DNA from: Peptococcaceae bacterium 1109
GTDB lineage: Bacteria; Bacillota; Limnochordia; Darwinibacteriales; Darwinibacteriaceae
Direction of reading: 5' to 3'
Assembly: GCA_001028815.1 (NCBI GenBank)
Contig: LDJB01000001.1
Location: 639,634 to 703,633, forward strand
Length of the DNA stretch: 64,000 bases
The first letter of the stretch is position 1; each line of letters starts with the position of its first letter. Position numbers and translations under genes: made by a program. Shown here one piece after another: positions 47,871-57,373 of the stretch. The notes below the pieces were generated by a model. The model saw only the letters and a list, made by a program, of their open reading frames with translations, was not told the origin of the DNA and searched no databases.

Positions 47871-49814
47871 CTACTCCTTAAACAGCCTGTTTTCAAACAT
47901 CCGGCCGCCAATGTAGACTTGGAGCACTGCACCATCGCCCCGGCCTTGGATGATGCGCTCGACTCGCTCCCCGCCGGGATGTGTTTCTCTGTATACCTCT
48001 CTGGCGCCAAAGTCATCGATAACCAAGATGGTTACTTCTTGAGGCGGACCCTCAGGCACGGTGATCTGAACCCGCAAGCTGGTCCACTGATCTTGCGGGG
48101 GCTGCTGCTGTGACTCAGCCTGGGGAGTGCTTGGCACCCGCACTGGCTGTCTGGGGGCTCCTTGGGAATAGACGAAGTCGATGGGCCAACCCACTTCTAC
48201 TCGCTCTCCAGGGGAGGGGTTCTGTTCAATGACTTGCCCTTCGCTGTACTCCGTACTGTACTCCTGCCACAAGTTACCTACGGTGAGCCCGTGGGCTGCA
48301 AGGCTTCCCTGCACATCCCTGAGCATCTGGCCGCGGAAATCAGGCACAACCACATAGGGGAGCACTTCTTGCCCGCGGTTGATAACCAGATCCACTGGAG
48401 TGCCCATCTCCACTGTGATGCCTGGCTCAGGGTGCTGTTCCACAACGGCGTTAACGGGAGACTCTGGGTCAAACACTTCCCGCTCCTCCCCTAAGACAAA
48501 CCCTGCCTGTGTCAGGGCTAGGCGCGCTTCCCGGGGAGTCATGCCTGAGACATCAGGCACCTCTAGAATCTGCCGTCCCATGCTGATCCGGACTTCGATG
48601 GGCCGGCCTTGCTTAACCATTCGGCCAGCTACCGGCTCTTGGGTCACGATGTGCCCTGCGGGGATGTTGTTGTCGTAGACTTCTTGTTCCACGCTGAGCA
48701 AAAGCCCAGCGGCCTGCAGAAGCCGCTCTGCCTCCGCAGTGCTTAAGCCTACAATAGCTGGCACCTGTACATCTTCTCCGAAGAGGATCATGGGCACAAT
48801 CTTCATCATGCCCCAGCCAAACCCGATCAGTAAAGCTAGTACCAGAATAATAGTCCCACCACGGCGGGGTTTGGCCTTCTTTCTCCTCCTGCCCTTGCCT
48901 TTTTTGCCTGCCACCTCATCAACCTCCTTGTCTGGTGCATCTATTGCTTCGAGCACCACCGTGTGCTCTTGAAGACTATCTGCATCTAGTTCCCGCTCGA
49001 TTCTCTGGAGGGCACGCGCCACTTCATCTGCATCCTGGGGACGCTGGCTGGGTTCCTTGGCCATCAGCTGCATCACCAGCTGTTCCAAGCTGCGGTTTAG
49101 TTCTGGCAGGTGCTGACGGAGGGGAACAGGGTTCTCCTGAATCTGCTTTAGCGCGATGGCAATGGGGGTATCCCCTCGGAAAGGCTGCCTGCCAGTGAGC
49201 ATCTCGTACATTACTACTCCCAGGGAATAAAGGTCGCTAGAACTGGTCACATTCACACCCCGGGCTTGCTCTGGGGAGAAGTAGTGTACCGATCCTAGCA
49301 CTACCCCAGTTTGGGTAAGGTTTGCAGCAGACATGGCTTGGGCGATACCGAAGTCTGTAACTTTTACTTGCCCTTCCTGGGTGATGAGGATGTTGTGGGG
49401 TTTGATGTCTCGGTGGACAATGCCGTGCTGATGGGCGTGGGAAAGGGCCCTGGCAATCTGCAGGGACACGCTCACTACAAAGTGTTCCGAAAGGGCACCT
49501 TTTTCGCGGATGACAGCACTGAGGTTTTCCCCTTGAACATATTCCATCACAATGAAGTGGGCTGTGTCGGTTTGACCCACATCGTAGATGTTCACCACAT
49601 TGGGATGGGATAGGCTAGCCGCGGATTGGGCCTCCCGGCGAAAGCGCTCCACAAACTCCATGTCCGTGGAAAATTGGTCTCTAAGCACCTTTACAGCAAC
49701 GATGCGGTTCAGCAGGGTGTCCTTGGCTCGATAGACCAAGGCCATCCCCCCGTCGCCCACTTTTTCTAAGATCTCATAGCGGTTAACTAACTTCTCACCA
49801 ATCATGGCAGTCAC
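47871..49814 (-). CDS. prkC: Ser/Thr protein kinase with C-terminal PASTA repeats
   Basis: Kinase HRDIKPHNILIT, DFGIAQ; TM; repeated PASTA VPxxxGxxxxxAxxxLxxxGL. Confidence 0.96.
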   Translation of the reverse strand: MTAMIGEKLVNRYEILEKVGDGGMALVYRAKDTLLNRIVAVKVLRDQFSTDMEFVERFRREAQSAASLSHPNVVNIYDVGQTDTAHFIVMEYVQGENLSAVIREKGALSEHFVVSVSLQIARALSHAHQHGIVHRDIKPHNILITQEGQVKVTDFGIAQAMSAANLTQTGVVLGSVHYFSPEQARGVNVTSSSDLYSLGVVMYEMLTGRQPFRGDTPIAIALKQIQENPVPLRQHLPELNRSLEQLVMQLMAKEPSQRPQDADEVARALQRIERELDADSLQEHTVVLEAIDAPDKEVDEVAGKKGKGRRRKKAKPRRGGTIILVLALLIGFGWGMMKIVPMILFGEDVQVPAIVGLSTAEAERLLQAAGLLLSVEQEVYDNNIPAGHIVTQEPVAGRMVKQGRPIEVRISMGRQILEVPDVSGMTPREARLALTQAGFVLGEEREVFDPESPVNAVVEQHPEPGITVEMGTPVDLVINRGQEVLPYVVVPDFRGQMLRDVQGSLAAHGLTVGNLWQEYSTEYSEGQVIEQNPSPGERVEVGWPIDFVYSQGAPRQPVRVPSTPQAESQQQPPQDQWTSLRVQITVPEGPPQEVTILVIDDFGAREVYRETHPGGERVERIIQGRGDGAVLQVYIGGRMFENRLFKE

Positions 49815-49822
49815 CTTTCAAT

Positions 49823-51199
49823 TCACATGCCTTGGGGCGTGCAGGCTGCCAAGGCTGCCTGCAGTACTGCGCCGCCTAAGGGCGCTGCAGTTTGGGAAGC
49901 TATGCCCCCGTGTTCCAGGACCACTACAACCGCAACCTCCGGATCGTAAGCAGGGGCAAAGCCCACAAACCAGCTGTGGTCCTGTCCTGCCCCAGTCTGA
50001 GCCGTGCCAGTTTTCCCCGCTGTAGGAATCCCTGGCAAGGCTGCCTCCCGGGCTGTGCCCCGTTCCACTGCTAAGACCATTCCATCTCTGACAGCGGCCG
50101 CGGCCCATTCAGGGATTACCTGGGTGTATGCCGCGGGCAGCTGCACTCGAGGCAACCGCCAGCCCCCCCGAACCTCCTGGACGAGGAGCGGCCGCATCAG
50201 CTTCCCCCCATTGGCGATGGCGGACACGGCTGAGGCCATTTGCAGGGGGGTGACCAAGAGATCCCCATGGCCGATGCCGATCTGCCCCCATCCGTAGTCT
50301 GATTGCTCGGGAGAGGGCAGGCGCCCCCGACTCATAGGTAGGGGCAAGGGCGGAATCTCCCCAAGGCCGAACTGGCTGAGGGCAGTGAGAAGCTTAGGGC
50401 CTAGTTCCGCGGCTAACAGCGCGAAAACCACGTTAGATGAATGGGCCAAGGCTTCCAAGGTTGTGATCCTGCCCAAGGCTTGGCCTTGGAAGTTCTTTAT
50501 CGCGCGGCCCTCAAGTTCCACTGCGCCCCGATCCACCCAGGGCTGCTCAGGGTAAGCAGCCCGCTCAGCGAAGGCAGCGCCTAATACCAAGGGCTTAATG
50601 GCAGAACCAGGGGGATATTGGCCCTGAACTGCCCGGTTTACAAAAGGACTTCGCTCATCTTGCAGATAATCTGACCAGCTCTCATCGAGGCGGTTGCCGT
50701 CCACGTACGGATAAGACACGAGGGCTAGGACCGCGCCTGTCTTGGGGTCCATAGCCACAGCGGCACCGACCTTTCCTGCCATGAGCTCTTCCATATGCTT
50801 TTGCAGGGGCAAGGCGATAGTGGTACGCACAGTCTGGCCTTGGCTTAGGCTGGAATTATACGCCTTTTCCAGCCCTGTCATGCCATAGCGCTGGTGGAAG
50901 TACCCGGTGATATGGCTTACAGACGGGCTGGCGTACACCCTGCGATACCCCACATCAGTGCTCACACTTTCCGCGAGGGGCTTCCCGTCCCTGTCCACGA
51001 TGGCTCCCCTCGGCTGGCGGAACACAGCGTAGCCCGTGGGATTTAGGGGATGGCCCTCTAGGTCCGCGATGGCCTGCCAGTACACCAAACCCCCGATGAG
51101 CAGAGCATAAGTGCACAAGATGAATAGGAAGCTTTTCCTGAAAAGTGCCTTCACTTCCCCCTCACCCTTCCTGTACTTGCCAGGATGCCCAGCATCCAC
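49823..51199 (-). CDS. Class B penicillin-binding protein (FtsI/PbpA-like)
   Basis: AIKPLVLGAAF (SxxK), SSN, KTGTAQT motifs. Confidence 0.93.
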   Translation of the reverse strand: MDAGHPGKYRKGEGEVKALFRKSFLFILCTYALLIGGLVYWQAIADLEGHPLNPTGYAVFRQPRGAIVDRDGKPLAESVSTDVGYRRVYASPSVSHITGYFHQRYGMTGLEKAYNSSLSQGQTVRTTIALPLQKHMEELMAGKVGAAVAMDPKTGAVLALVSYPYVDGNRLDESWSDYLQDERSPFVNRAVQGQYPPGSAIKPLVLGAAFAERAAYPEQPWVDRGAVELEGRAIKNFQGQALGRITTLEALAHSSNVVFALLAAELGPKLLTALSQFGLGEIPPLPLPMSRGRLPSPEQSDYGWGQIGIGHGDLLVTPLQMASAVSAIANGGKLMRPLLVQEVRGGWRLPRVQLPAAYTQVIPEWAAAAVRDGMVLAVERGTAREAALPGIPTAGKTGTAQTGAGQDHSWFVGFAPAYDPEVAVVVVLEHGGIASQTAAPLGGAVLQAALAACTPQGM

Positions 51200-52353
51200 A
51201 TATGGGCCGCCAGGGAACTGGAGCCGTAGCTGAGCAAGGGTAAAGTCATCCCGGTAAGGGGGAGCAAGCGCAGGATTCCCCCTACCACCAGGAACACTTG
51301 TGCCGAGAAAAGCAGGACTATTCCTAAAGCGGTGGATTGCTCCACCGGATCAGTGCTTCGGCTCGCGAGCCTCAGCCCGATAAAAGCGATGATAAGGTAC
51401 AGGCTTATCACCGACACTGTTCCAACTAATCCCAATTCTTCACCGATAAGGGCAAAAATAAAGTCGGTGTGCACCTCAGGGATTAATTCGCCTGCGCCGG
51501 CACCAATCCCTTTTCCCAGCACTTTCCCGTTGTTGAGGGCGAAAAGGCCTTGCAGGATCTGGTAACCTGCCCCCTCTGCGTGTTCCCAAGGGCTGATCCA
51601 AGCAGCGGCCCTGGTGCGCAGATGGGGAAACAGAAGCAGCGCCCCGGTAAATCCAGAAATTGTGAGCACGCCGTAGGCAGCCAGAAGCTTCCACGAACCA
51701 ACTATGAGGCTGGATAAAGCGCAGTATACCAGAAACACCAGCAGTGCAGGCCCCAGGTCCCGTTGCACCGCGAGGAGCATAAACACGCTGCCCAGAAACA
51801 GGAGCAACGGCCCCCAATAGGCTGCCCCTGCCCAACCCTGCTTGAGGGTCAGAAGGGGCCGGTTTTCCACGAGGTAGCGGGCAATAAACAGCACCAGCAG
51901 CACCTTTGCAAACTCCACCGGTTGAAAGCGGATGGGGCCCACAGCCAGCCAGGCCTTGGCCCCGCCAGACCACTGGCCAAAGATCAATGTAAGGGCGAGG
52001 AGTGCGGCAGCACTTACCCCAAAGACGTACTTAGCCCTGCTCGTGGCCCAGTTTCCCGCGAACCCGATGCAATATGCCCCCAGGCCAACCATGGCCCCGG
52101 TGAACATGTGCGCTGCCCACTCAGCCCGCAAGCGGTAGAGGAAAACCCACCCTAAACCTACTAACAACGCCGCAGGCAACAGCAGGGTATGTGTGCCGCC
52201 CCACTGCCGGGAAAGGAGGGCTAGCCCTGCAAACCCGCCCCAAATGGCCAGAAGCTGCCACCACAGGGCAAGGTTTTGACGTTGGCTTAGGGCTGCTAGG
52301 GCAAGCCCAAGCCATCCTGCAAGTTCTATCCACGGGAGAATCCAGCGGCGCAA
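51151..52353 (-). CDS. FtsW/RodA/SpoVE family SEDS protein
   Basis: Polytopic; FQPVEFAKVLLVLFIARYL; HTDFIFALIGEELGLVG. Confidence 0.94.
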   Translation of the reverse strand: MRRWILPWIELAGWLGLALAALSQRQNLALWWQLLAIWGGFAGLALLSRQWGGTHTLLLPAALLVGLGWVFLYRLRAEWAAHMFTGAMVGLGAYCIGFAGNWATSRAKYVFGVSAAALLALTLIFGQWSGGAKAWLAVGPIRFQPVEFAKVLLVLFIARYLVENRPLLTLKQGWAGAAYWGPLLLFLGSVFMLLAVQRDLGPALLVFLVYCALSSLIVGSWKLLAAYGVLTISGFTGALLLFPHLRTRAAAWISPWEHAEGAGYQILQGLFALNNGKVLGKGIGAGAGELIPEVHTDFIFALIGEELGLVGTVSVISLYLIIAFIGLRLASRSTDPVEQSTALGIVLLFSAQVFLVVGGILRLLPLTGMTLPLLSYGSSSLAAHMWMLGILASTGRVRGK

Positions 52354-52364
52354 TTCTCTGCCTC

Positions 52365-53078
52365 CTAAGGCACCTGGGCGACTATTACTGTAATATTATC
52401 TCGGCCTCCCAGGGCGTTGGCTAGGGCAACTAGCTCTTGGGCCGTTTCTTGCGGAGGCGACTTGGCGATGTGTTCCTTGATCTGTTCATCACTGAGCACA
52501 TCGGTTAAGCCATCGGTACAGATGAGGAGGCGGGCTCCAGAGGGTAGGAGCAGGCGGTGGAGTTCTACTTCCACTCGGCCAATGCCCAGTGCTTGAGAGA
52601 GGACGTGGCGCTGCGGGTGCAGCACTGCCTCTTCCGGTGAGAGGGTGCCTTGCCGGGTGAGCTCACCGACGACTGAATGGTCATTGGTAATGCGGTAAAG
52701 GTCCCCGTCAGCATAGTAATAGGCGCGGCTATCCCCCACATGCCCCACAGTCACGTCCGCCCCTTCCTCCACCAAGCGGCACAGGGCCATGGTGATGGTA
52801 GTGCCCATGCCCTGCATGGCAGGGTCACTTGAGGATGCTTGCGCAATCTCAGCATGTGCCCTCAAAATGGCCTCCTTGACCTCTTCCAGGGGATGCTCAA
52901 ACTGGAAGGGAAAACGGCGAATGGCCTCCACAGCCATGGCTGATGCCACCTCTCCCGCTTGATGCCCTCCCATACCATCGCAGACAACTAAGAGGCCCTT
53001 GTCTGTCCAAAAGGCATCCTCGTTAGTCTGGCGTACCCTGCCGATACTTGTTTCCGCCCCCACGTTCATCCTCAACAC
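52365..53078 (-). CDS. prpC: PP2C-family Ser/Thr phosphatase (PrpC/Stp)
   Basis: GRVRQTNEDAFW; VCDGMGGHQAGEVAS; GHVGDSRAYYY; GGRDNITVIV. Start 53078 (GTG) or 53069 (ATG). Confidence 0.95.
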   Translation of the reverse strand: MLRMNVGAETSIGRVRQTNEDAFWTDKGLLVVCDGMGGHQAGEVASAMAVEAIRRFPFQFEHPLEEVKEAILRAHAEIAQASSSDPAMQGMGTTITMALCRLVEEGADVTVGHVGDSRAYYYADGDLYRITNDHSVVGELTRQGTLSPEEAVLHPQRHVLSQALGIGRVEVELHRLLLPSGARLLICTDGLTDVLSDEQIKEHIAKSPPQETAQELVALANALGGRDNITVIVAQVP

Positions 53079-53080
53079 CC

Positions 53081-53182
53081 CTACTTAAACTCGTTCAGCA
53101 TCAGGCGAGCCATCTCCCACACCAAGCGCAGCAGCCACAGGACCAATGCCAGTCGTACTGCAAGGTAGAGGATAGCCATCAT
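53081..53182 (-). CDS. 33-aa membrane microprotein between FHA and PP2C genes
   Basis: MMAILYLAVRLALVLWLLRLVWEMARLMLNEFK*; AAGGAG 5 nt upstream of ATG; ATGA overlap with the FHA stop codon. Confidence 0.65.
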   Translation of the reverse strand: MMAILYLAVRLALVLWLLRLVWEMARLMLNEFK

Positions 53183-53907
53183 ATAGACTCCTTGTATGTA
53201 AGTACAGCTGTCCCCACCTGGATTTGATCCCCGGGCTTCAAGGGCACTGCCGTCACCCGGGTTCCGTTTACGAACAGGCCATTGGTGCTGTTGCTGTCCT
53301 CAATAACCCATTCGCCGTCCCGCTTGGAAATCCGGGCATGGATGCGGCTCACATTAGGCTCATCTAGGACCAGGTCGCACTGGGAACTCCGCCCGATGGC
53401 CATGCCGTCCTTGAGTGGTATCGGGGAACTTGCCCCTCGCCCAACCTCAACGATCAGGCACCCTCCGAGAATCTGCTGCCTGCGAAAGACCTGGGTGTCC
53501 ACGTTGGGCTCTTCTTGAGAAGGCAGCTCTTCACACTGCCCTTCGCAAAACTCCGCCCTAACTTGGAGCTGGCCTGATGTGAGCTCCGGATCGGCTGCAA
53601 AGGCCACAGAAAGCGGCCCGATAAATCGCAATTGATCCTTTTCTGCTTTTTCTTGCAAAACTCCTTTCAGCTCGCCCTCCAAAGTTCGAGCCAGGGAGCT
53701 CATGTCCTCAAGATCCCCCTGGCTGAGGATAATGGTGAACTTGTTAGGGGCATAAACGCAAGCCATGCTCACCCGCTTGTGCCTGTCCACCGCGGATAGT
53801 AGAGCTCTTCCTACTTCCAGAGGTTCAACCCGCCTGGGAATCCGGCGGCGGAAGGCACCCTCGATCCAGCTGCTAAGGCGGTGTTCGATTCGCTCTAGGA
53901 GGCTCAC
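53179..53907 (-). CDS. DUF3662 + FHA domain protein (FhaA-like)
   Basis: N-terminal RIEHRLSSWIEGAFRRRIPRRVEPLEVGRALL; C-terminal FHA IGRSSQCDLVLDEPNVSRIHARISKRDGEWVIEDSNSTNGLFVNG. Confidence 0.93.
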   Translation of the reverse strand: MSLLERIEHRLSSWIEGAFRRRIPRRVEPLEVGRALLSAVDRHKRVSMACVYAPNKFTIILSQGDLEDMSSLARTLEGELKGVLQEKAEKDQLRFIGPLSVAFAADPELTSGQLQVRAEFCEGQCEELPSQEEPNVDTQVFRRQQILGGCLIVEVGRGASSPIPLKDGMAIGRSSQCDLVLDEPNVSRIHARISKRDGEWVIEDSNSTNGLFVNGTRVTAVPLKPGDQIQVGTAVLTYKESI

Positions 53908-54965
53908 TCCCCCCTCCTCCTTTCACCTTTGTGTACTTGGCGGAGTTGGCCGCAAGCTGCTTCAATATCTGTCCCTCGCTCCTTGCGGATCGAAGCTGGT
54001 ATGCCCTGCCGTTCCAGGATCTCCTTAAACAGCTTCACTTCATCACTCCTGGGGCGCTGAAAGCCCTCCACGGGGTTCACTGGGATTAGGTTGACGTGGC
54101 ACAGCATGTCTTTAAGTAGGCCAGCCAGCATATGGGCATCGTGTGGTGCATCATTAAACCCTGCCATCAGGGCATACTCAAAAGAGATACGCCGATTGGT
54201 TTTGGCGGTATACACGCGGCAGGCCTCAAGCAGTTCCTCAATGGGATATCGCCGGTTGATAGGCATTACTTGGGAGCGCCGGGCGTTATCTGGTGCGTGG
54301 AGGGAGACCGCTAGGTTGATCTGGGTGTTCAAATCGGCGAACTGCAGGATTTCAGGGACCAGCCCGCACGTTGAGATGGTGATTCTGCGCTGGCCCAGGT
54401 TCATCCCGGCTTTGTCTTGCATGACAGCCGCGGCGGCCATAACCTCAGTGAAGTTGGCAAAGGGTTCTCCCATCCCCATGAACACGATGTTCGTCACTCC
54501 TGGCGCACCTGGGGGCAGCGCCCCCCGGACAGCGTTCACCTGGCTGACGATCTCCGCCCGAGAGAGGTTGCGCACAAACCCGCTTCGGCCTGTGGCGCAA
54601 AACGAACAGTTCATGGCACACCCCACCTGCGCGGAGATGCATAGTGTCCCCCGCCCTGGTTCGGGAATGTACACCGCTTCAATAGTACTGTGATCAAATA
54701 GTTCGAACAGATACTTGATGGTGCCATCCTGAGATTCCCGGGTTAGGATAATCCGGCAGGCAGAGGGAGTCCGGTACTTCTCCTCCAGGTGCTCCACCAC
54801 TTCTTGCGGGAGGTTGTGCATCTCCTCAAAGCTCGAGGAAGCTTTCTGGTGCACCCAGCGAAACACTTGGTCTGCCCGGAACCTAGGCCAGCCTTGCTCC
54901 GCCATAAGCTGGGCCAGTTCTTCTTTATGTAGCCCCGCCACATGTAGTTTATCCATATTTTCCAT
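53904..54965 (-). CDS. rlmN: Dual-specificity RNA methyltransferase RlmN
   Basis: CISAQVGCAMNCSFCATGRSGFVRNL radical SAM CxxxCxxC. Confidence 0.96.
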   Translation of the reverse strand: MENMDKLHVAGLHKEELAQLMAEQGWPRFRADQVFRWVHQKASSSFEEMHNLPQEVVEHLEEKYRTPSACRIILTRESQDGTIKYLFELFDHSTIEAVYIPEPGRGTLCISAQVGCAMNCSFCATGRSGFVRNLSRAEIVSQVNAVRGALPPGAPGVTNIVFMGMGEPFANFTEVMAAAAVMQDKAGMNLGQRRITISTCGLVPEILQFADLNTQINLAVSLHAPDNARRSQVMPINRRYPIEELLEACRVYTAKTNRRISFEYALMAGFNDAPHDAHMLAGLLKDMLCHVNLIPVNPVEGFQRPRSDEVKLFKEILERQGIPASIRKERGTDIEAACGQLRQVHKGERRRGE

Positions 54966-55008
54966 ATATTACTTACCTCCAAGAACCGCTAAACAGAGGG
55001 TGATCACG

Positions 55009-55302
55009 GTGAAAACTCATAATAAAATATACTTTCTGACCAGTTATGTGGAATACCTCTTAGAAAGGGGCATCCGGTCTGAAGAATATTATCTCGGGGA
55101 TGCCTCTCGGTTTATCCGTTTTCTCTTAGCCAACTCCACAGAAGAAGATGTGCGCCGCTTTATCGAGGAGTCTGCGGTATCCGGCACGTACCGTCAGCGC
55201 CTGGAGAAGACTTTGCGCCGGTTTTTCACCTTTTGCAGCGAACACCTGGCAATAGAATGTCCCCAAAAAACAAAAAAACCAGACACACGCCAATTAGGGT
55301 AA
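55009..55302 (+). pseudogene. Standalone phage-integrase-like N-terminal (SAM/core-binding) domain; probable truncated tyrosine recombinase remnant
   Basis: FLTSYVEYLLERGIRSEEYYLGDASRFIRFLL...YRQRLEKTLRRFFTFCSEH matches the core-binding pattern, but no catalytic domain; C-terminus runs into the tRNA terminator. Confidence 0.5.
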
Positions 55303-56617: not shown

Positions 56618-57373
56618 CTATTTGTGCAGCGCGTGGGCTTCTTCGGCCAATTTGGCGATAAACAGAGAGTTTGTTGGGACCCGTTCTCCCCCGAGCTGGC
56701 TGCAGAGCTCCTTGATACCGTCCCGGTTGCCATTTTCCCAAGCGGCAACAATGGCGTTGCGAATTGCAGCCTCCACTCCTCCAGGAGTGGTATTATACTT
56801 ATGGGCCAGGGCGGGATAGAGCTCCTTGGTAAGGGTCCCACTGAGATAACCGGTTGCAGCACACATCATCACAGCTTCTCTGATGTATGCGAAACCTTTG
56901 TAATGAGGGGGGACCCCTAGCTTATGTAAGATCCTGGTGATCGCGGCTTCCAGGTTCCCCGGCGCCCCGCCGTGGACAGCTGCGGCTTCTTGCCCTATGG
57001 CCACACGGGGTTGGGTGAACTGCCGGATCCGATCTGTCAAGACCTGCAAACTGAAGGGTTTGAGCATGAAATAATCCACGCCTAACTCTGTGAATCGGGC
57101 AATGAGATCGTCCCGGCCGAACGCGGTTAAGACAATAATCCGGGGCCTGCGCGCTAGGCTTAGTGAGTCTAAGCGCTCCAACACCCCTATGCCGTCCAGG
57201 TGGGGCATGGTGATGTCCAGGATAACCACGTCGGGCGCCAGTTCCCCGATGAGGGCCAGAGCTTGTTCCCCATCGTGGGCTTCTCCCACCATGGTTAAGT
57301 CTTCTTGGGTGGCAAAGTATTCGCGCAAAAGTCGGCACAATTCGACATTATTGTCCACAACCAGAATTCTCAT
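56618..57373 (-). CDS. spo0A: Sporulation transcription factor Spo0A
   Basis: Receiver VVILDITMPHLDGIGVLERL; effector GVPPHYKGFAYIREAVMM...LTKELYPALAHKYNTTPGGVEAAIRNAI. Confidence 0.95.
   Translation of the reverse strand: MRILVVDNNVELCRLLREYFATQEDLTMVGEAHDGEQALALIGELAPDVVILDITMPHLDGIGVLERLDSLSLARRPRIIVLTAFGRDDLIARFTELGVDYFMLKPFSLQVLTDRIRQFTQPRVAIGQEAAAVHGGAPGNLEAAITRILHKLGVPPHYKGFAYIREAVMMCAATGYLSGTLTKELYPALAHKYNTTPGGVEAAIRNAIVAAWENGNRDGIKELCSQLGGERVPTNSLFIAKLAEEAHALHK

Follow-up and report, generated by a model that had tools for sequence, protein, structure and literature searches.

A 64,000-nt stretch of contig LDJB01000001.1 of Peptococcaceae bacterium 1109 (hereafter the window) encodes a membrane microprotein between fhaA and prpC that is very probably the N-terminal transmembrane (TM) helix of FhaB, retained without the FHA domain, and that adds an unannotated microprotein family. 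Taken as a whole, the explanation towards which we lean is that this helix relic serves the neighbouring RodA-PbpA synthase as an accessory subunit or as a regulator.

The ORF translates as MMAILYLAVRLALVLWLLRLVWEMARLMLNEFK and lies in a minus-strand operon with the order rlmN - fhaA - 33-aa ORF - prpC - rodA - pbpA - prkC - rsgA (Table 1). The initial annotation had described a 33-aa membrane ORF that is preceded by an AAGGAG Shine-Dalgarno (SD) sequence and overlaps the fhaA stop codon, and this was confirmed: in families f1, f3, and f4 of the window's order, all 32 genomes with an assembled site have a homologue of 31 to 36 aa directly upstream of prpC. Its account of the ORF ends stood in part. 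The product is probably 32 aa with the start at 53179, because most relatives align to, or start at, the second methionine; this start gives a TGATG overlap and an SD spacing of 8 nt. The GTG at 53078, 2 bp past the ORF and formerly taken as the start of prpC, is probably not that start, since it lies inside an AGGGGTG SD sequence and relatives point to the ATG at 53069. With this ATG, the gap between the microprotein and prpC is 11 nt, and the microprotein stop codon overlaps the prpC SD. The tight, translation-coupled arrangement holds after both corrections.

Table 1. Features of the fhaA-prpC-rodA-pbpA-prkC cluster in the window (positions are those of the window).
Feature	Position	Strand	Size or domains	Remark
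Microprotein ORF	53081..53182	minus	33 aa, probably 32 aa with start at 53179	single-helix membrane microprotein; very probably a TM-only FhaB relic
Microprotein SD, AAGGAG	53188..53193	minus		within the 3' end of fhaA; assigned from the sequence; GAGGAG-like in relatives
fhaA	53179..53907	minus	FhaA_N (PF12401, DUF3662) and FHA (PF00498)	sole FHA domain found in the window's genome
prpC	52365..53069	minus	PP2C-type Ser/Thr phosphatase	ATG 53069, as supported by starts of relatives; GTG 53078 within the SD
rodA-like	51151..52353	minus	SEDS polymerase (FTSW_RODA_SPOVE)	proposed partner, by co-occurrence
pbpA-like	49823..51199	minus	class B PBP (Transpeptidase and PBP_dimer_2)	proposed partner
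prkC	47871..49814	minus	Ser/Thr kinase, three PASTA domains	
rlmN	53904..54965	minus		precedes fhaA in the conserved cluster

A profile of the microprotein recovers its homologues in 31 genomes at E-values of 1e-10 to 1e-16; a further one lies at a contig end. Four residues, W16, L17, R19, and M28, hardly vary among 28 aligned microproteins, all of which have a basic residue (R, K, or H) at position 10. A codon model gives an omega of 0.227 (lnL -2052.3 with omega free versus -2127.5 at omega = 1), an estimate of limited power that rests on about 30 codons, with some close pairs reaching 0.7. Selection on the microprotein is purifying. Two outcomes that the initial annotation had named as speaking against a gene, an ORF unconserved in relatives and a dN/dS near 1, were both looked for, and what we found was conservation and an omega well away from 1. 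Conservation and omega together reject a chance ORF, and the microprotein is almost certainly a real translated gene. The window peptide has no Pfam or NCBIfam match above the curated cut-off, and the 28 members yield isolated weak matches only.

An ORF that fills the gap, overlaps the fhaA stop, and has its own stop within the prpC SD could also be a cis-acting leader that couples fhaA to prpC and whose peptide has no function. The codon analysis contradicts a leader peptide alone, as it reveals constraint at the amino-acid level, to which the near-invariant residues and the basic position 10 also testify. The peptide moreover has homology to a protein domain, and in one genome (G003) it is present without fhaA, which together make a pure leader very improbable.

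Structure prediction returned one continuous helix (residues 2 to 32, mean pLDDT 92), whose first half is hydrophobic and whose second half is strongly amphipathic. The basic residues toward the C-terminus suggest an N-out/C-in orientation, the topology that would also place the FHA domain of FhaB in the cytoplasm.

FhaB (FipA, Rv0019c-type) is the protein with an N-terminal TM segment and a C-terminal FHA domain that is encoded in the fhaA-fhaB-pstP-rodA-pbpA-pkn operon. The initial annotation had placed the microprotein at the FhaB position and likened it to an FhaB TM segment that lacks the FHA domain; the comparison with relatives bears this out. Sister families of the class have a full FhaB, helix and FHA domain, in the same slot. 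An hhalign comparison of the microprotein with FhaB helices is ungapped, runs from the first residues of FhaB (probability 91.5), and matches the polar mid-helix column. The score is 21.1 versus 13.3 for the best of 37 hydrophobic decoy windows from RodA, PbpA, and PrkC, and none of 200 column shuffles reaches the real score. As in the FhaB/FipA operon, the microprotein gene lies between fhaA and a PP2C gene and has rodA-pbpA downstream, the same neighbours; like the FhaB/FipA TM segment, the microprotein has a polar or basic residue in mid-helix, a hydrophobic core, and a basic juxtamembrane end. Unlike FhaB/FipA, it has 32 aa rather than about 150 and no FHA domain (the window ORF ends after 33 aa, and the genome's one FHA domain belongs to FhaA), which makes it a helix relic and not an FhaB. 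Descent from the FhaB helix is thus very probable. An fhaB with an N-terminal TM helix and a cytoplasmic FHA domain would have lost the latter in an ancestor of f1, f3, and f4, and the helix itself is the part under selection.

Reduction of FhaB to its helix is not confined to the window's order. In the class family f16, only the helix remains and there is no FHA gene; f36 has a helix-only form of 50 to 58 aa in seven genomes, with FhaA kept; and f76/f87 have a helix-only form of about 42 to 64 aa in six genomes, with no FHA gene at the locus. The helices of f16, f36, and f76/f87 match the FhaB helix at 94% to 97% probability. A search of 399 genomes of the phylum with the microprotein profile gave no convincing match outside the window's order; this profile does not reach the more diverged helix-only forms elsewhere, which came to light only through inspection of the syntenic slot. 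Families with full FhaB stand between the helix-only lineages, so FhaB has been cut to its helix independently at least four times, as judged on a rough phylogeny.

FhaA (DUF3662-FHA) is encoded by the adjoining gene of the same operon, but it is a two-domain FHA protein without the helix and is dispensable for helix retention. It has shrunk to an FHA-only protein of 137 to 157 aa in genera g2, g4, g8, and g9 of f1 (L049, L051, L053, L064, and others), where FhaA_N (DUF3662) is lost save for a short N-terminal stretch.

The helix might be the split-off membrane half of FhaB that binds FhaA non-covalently and recruits it to the membrane. Most f1 and f3 genomes have the FHA gene directly upstream, often overlapping, and a FhaA of about 140 aa consisting of the FHA domain only, as in several f1 genera, would suit such an arrangement. 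Yet G003 has lost the FHA gene and kept the helix; there is no FHA domain anywhere in the genomes G003, G069, G184, and G243, all of which have the helix, and f5 has FhaA without the helix. These cases contradict a FhaA partner as a general rule and with it a role as an anchor for the FHA protein. We consider recruitment of FhaA decidedly improbable for the family, and it could hold in individual lineages.

The distribution of the helix follows that of RodA-PbpA. Counting a helix whether it is part of FhaB or alone, 135 clusters comprise 79 with helix and RodA, none with helix but without RodA, three with RodA but without helix, and 53 with neither; members of one family are not independent observations, which makes these raw counts an overstatement of the evidence, and changes shared by helix and RodA are a better gauge. 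Such joint changes account for about 19 of the 23 edges with a change of state on a two-marker tree (topology and counts are approximate). Within the order, RodA follows prpC in all 29 helix-bearing genomes checked. Families f5 and f2 of the same order have no RodA-PbpA between prpC and prkC and no helix, and they keep PrpC and PrkC; genome-wide, the RodA orthologue is absent from both (SEDS paralogues elsewhere are distant), and the microprotein profile finds no helix anywhere. In trees of rlmN, prpC, and prkC, f5 and f2 branch with the other families of the order or adjacent to them.

The same pattern extends through the phylum, where 80 further genomes were sampled, three of them uninformative. 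The helix, either within FhaB or by itself, is present in all 32 RodA-bearing clusters and in none of the 45 PrpC-PrkC clusters without RodA; a helix HMM likewise places the hydrophobic helix in RodA-bearing clusters of the phylum and in no cluster without RodA. For 20 genomes of the class, the presence of RodA was predicted before the downstream DNA was fetched, and 17 predictions were correct: helix implied RodA in 13/13, and absence of the helix implied absence of RodA in 4/7. The latter prediction failed in G044, G066, and G067, in whose clusters we detected no helix despite a RodA-like gene. The SEDS proteins of these clusters (L243, L250, and L251, respectively) are the most divergent of the sample and the weakest against the RodA model, and perhaps represent a replaced synthase. 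In f3, RodA and PbpA can form one continuous ORF of 825 to 845 aa (L148 in G024, L149 in G027, and L152 in G036), and open RodA-PbpA frames also occur in L244, L245, and L257-L259; these are natural SEDS-class B PBP fusions, and the separate helix is kept in all of them.

From this distribution, the helix is likely tied functionally to RodA-PbpA. The initial annotation had offered an anchor or regulator of the kinase/phosphatase/SEDS-PBP module, and co-occurrence singles out RodA-PbpA among these three candidates, so that the SEDS-PBP part of the proposal survives and the PrkC/PrpC part is set aside by f5 and f2. An anchor or regulator of the PrkC kinase or the PrpC phosphatase in the membrane would fit a gene that overlaps fhaA, is coupled to prpC through a stop codon within the prpC SD, and always lies directly upstream of prpC. 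PrpC-PrkC clusters without the helix, however, occur in four genomes of the order, four of the class, and 45 of the phylum sample, and the helix tracks RodA-PbpA and not PrkC, which leaves this role improbable.

The link to RodA could instead be a by-product of long and short cluster types that are inherited or exchanged as blocks, with another envelope protein as the true partner, for example FtsZ/FtsQ as proposed for FipA. Long and short clusters do alternate over the whole phylum, genes of one operon can co-occur because a whole cluster type was adopted rather than through contact of their products, and binding of FtsZ by FipA has been reported for mycobacteria (PMC3989709). Against this, the f5 cluster is intermediate: FhaA is kept, and the helix and RodA-PbpA are gone on either side of the retained prpC, two separate losses that do not fit block exchange. 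The f5 PrpC, PrkC, and RlmN moreover group with the order in their trees, and the joint changes recur about 19 times. We regard a by-product of this kind as unlikely.

FhaB is usually seen as a phosphothreonine reader that acts on FtsZ, and its helix is usually treated as a mere anchor. The lineages described here are a natural experiment that splits the two halves of FhaB: the FHA domain is repeatedly expendable, and the helix is kept almost wherever RodA-PbpA is kept, which points to the helix as a functional contact with the SEDS-PBP synthase. More specifically, the microprotein, a single helix, may belong to RodA-PbpA as an accessory subunit or act as its regulator, a role to which we give slightly less than an even chance on the present sequence comparisons. 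It would sit in the membrane N-out/C-in beside the synthase, and its contact features would probably be the buried basic position 10 with the W16-L17-x-R19 patch and, secondly, on the cytoplasmic side, the amphipathic C-terminal half. Within a full FhaB, the same helix would bring to the synthase an FHA domain that reads phosphothreonine; the window's lineage would have given up phospho-reading or left it to FhaA, while retaining what the helix contributes. A broader and more tentative reading is that the 32-residue helix is a conserved RodA-PbpA subunit of PASTA-kinase bacteria, that FhaB is this subunit plus a phospho-reader that several lineages dropped, and that the helix of actinobacterial FhaB does the same job.

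There is a precedent for action on RodA through a single TM segment and its flanking region in RagB (YrrS), a booster of Bacillus subtilis RodA and likewise a single-pass membrane protein, in which the TM segment and a disordered region, and not the folded domain, act on RodA, being necessary to bind it and sufficient for function (PMC12457691). Unlike the microprotein, RagB has a large extracellular part, the opposite topology, and a different locus, and for the microprotein the link to RodA is deduced. Mycobacterial fhaB shares its operon with rodA and pbpA (PMC11898655), and its product, FhaB/FipA, has FtsZ and PknA rather than RodA as published partners (PMC3989709). Our search of the accessible literature (small membrane proteins with RodA; FhaB with RodA) found no earlier helix-only form or helix-RodA link.

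Two other features lie near the PrkC cluster in the window. A complete Spo0A (Response_reg and Spo0A_C) is encoded at 56618-57373 on the minus strand, between rsmB and an ORF for a Gfo/Idh-like oxidoreductase. Divergent from rlmN, a 162-aa ORF at 54814-55302 on the plus strand gives the impression, by its sequence, of a tyrosine integrase that has the N-terminal SAM-like domain and lacks the catalytic one.
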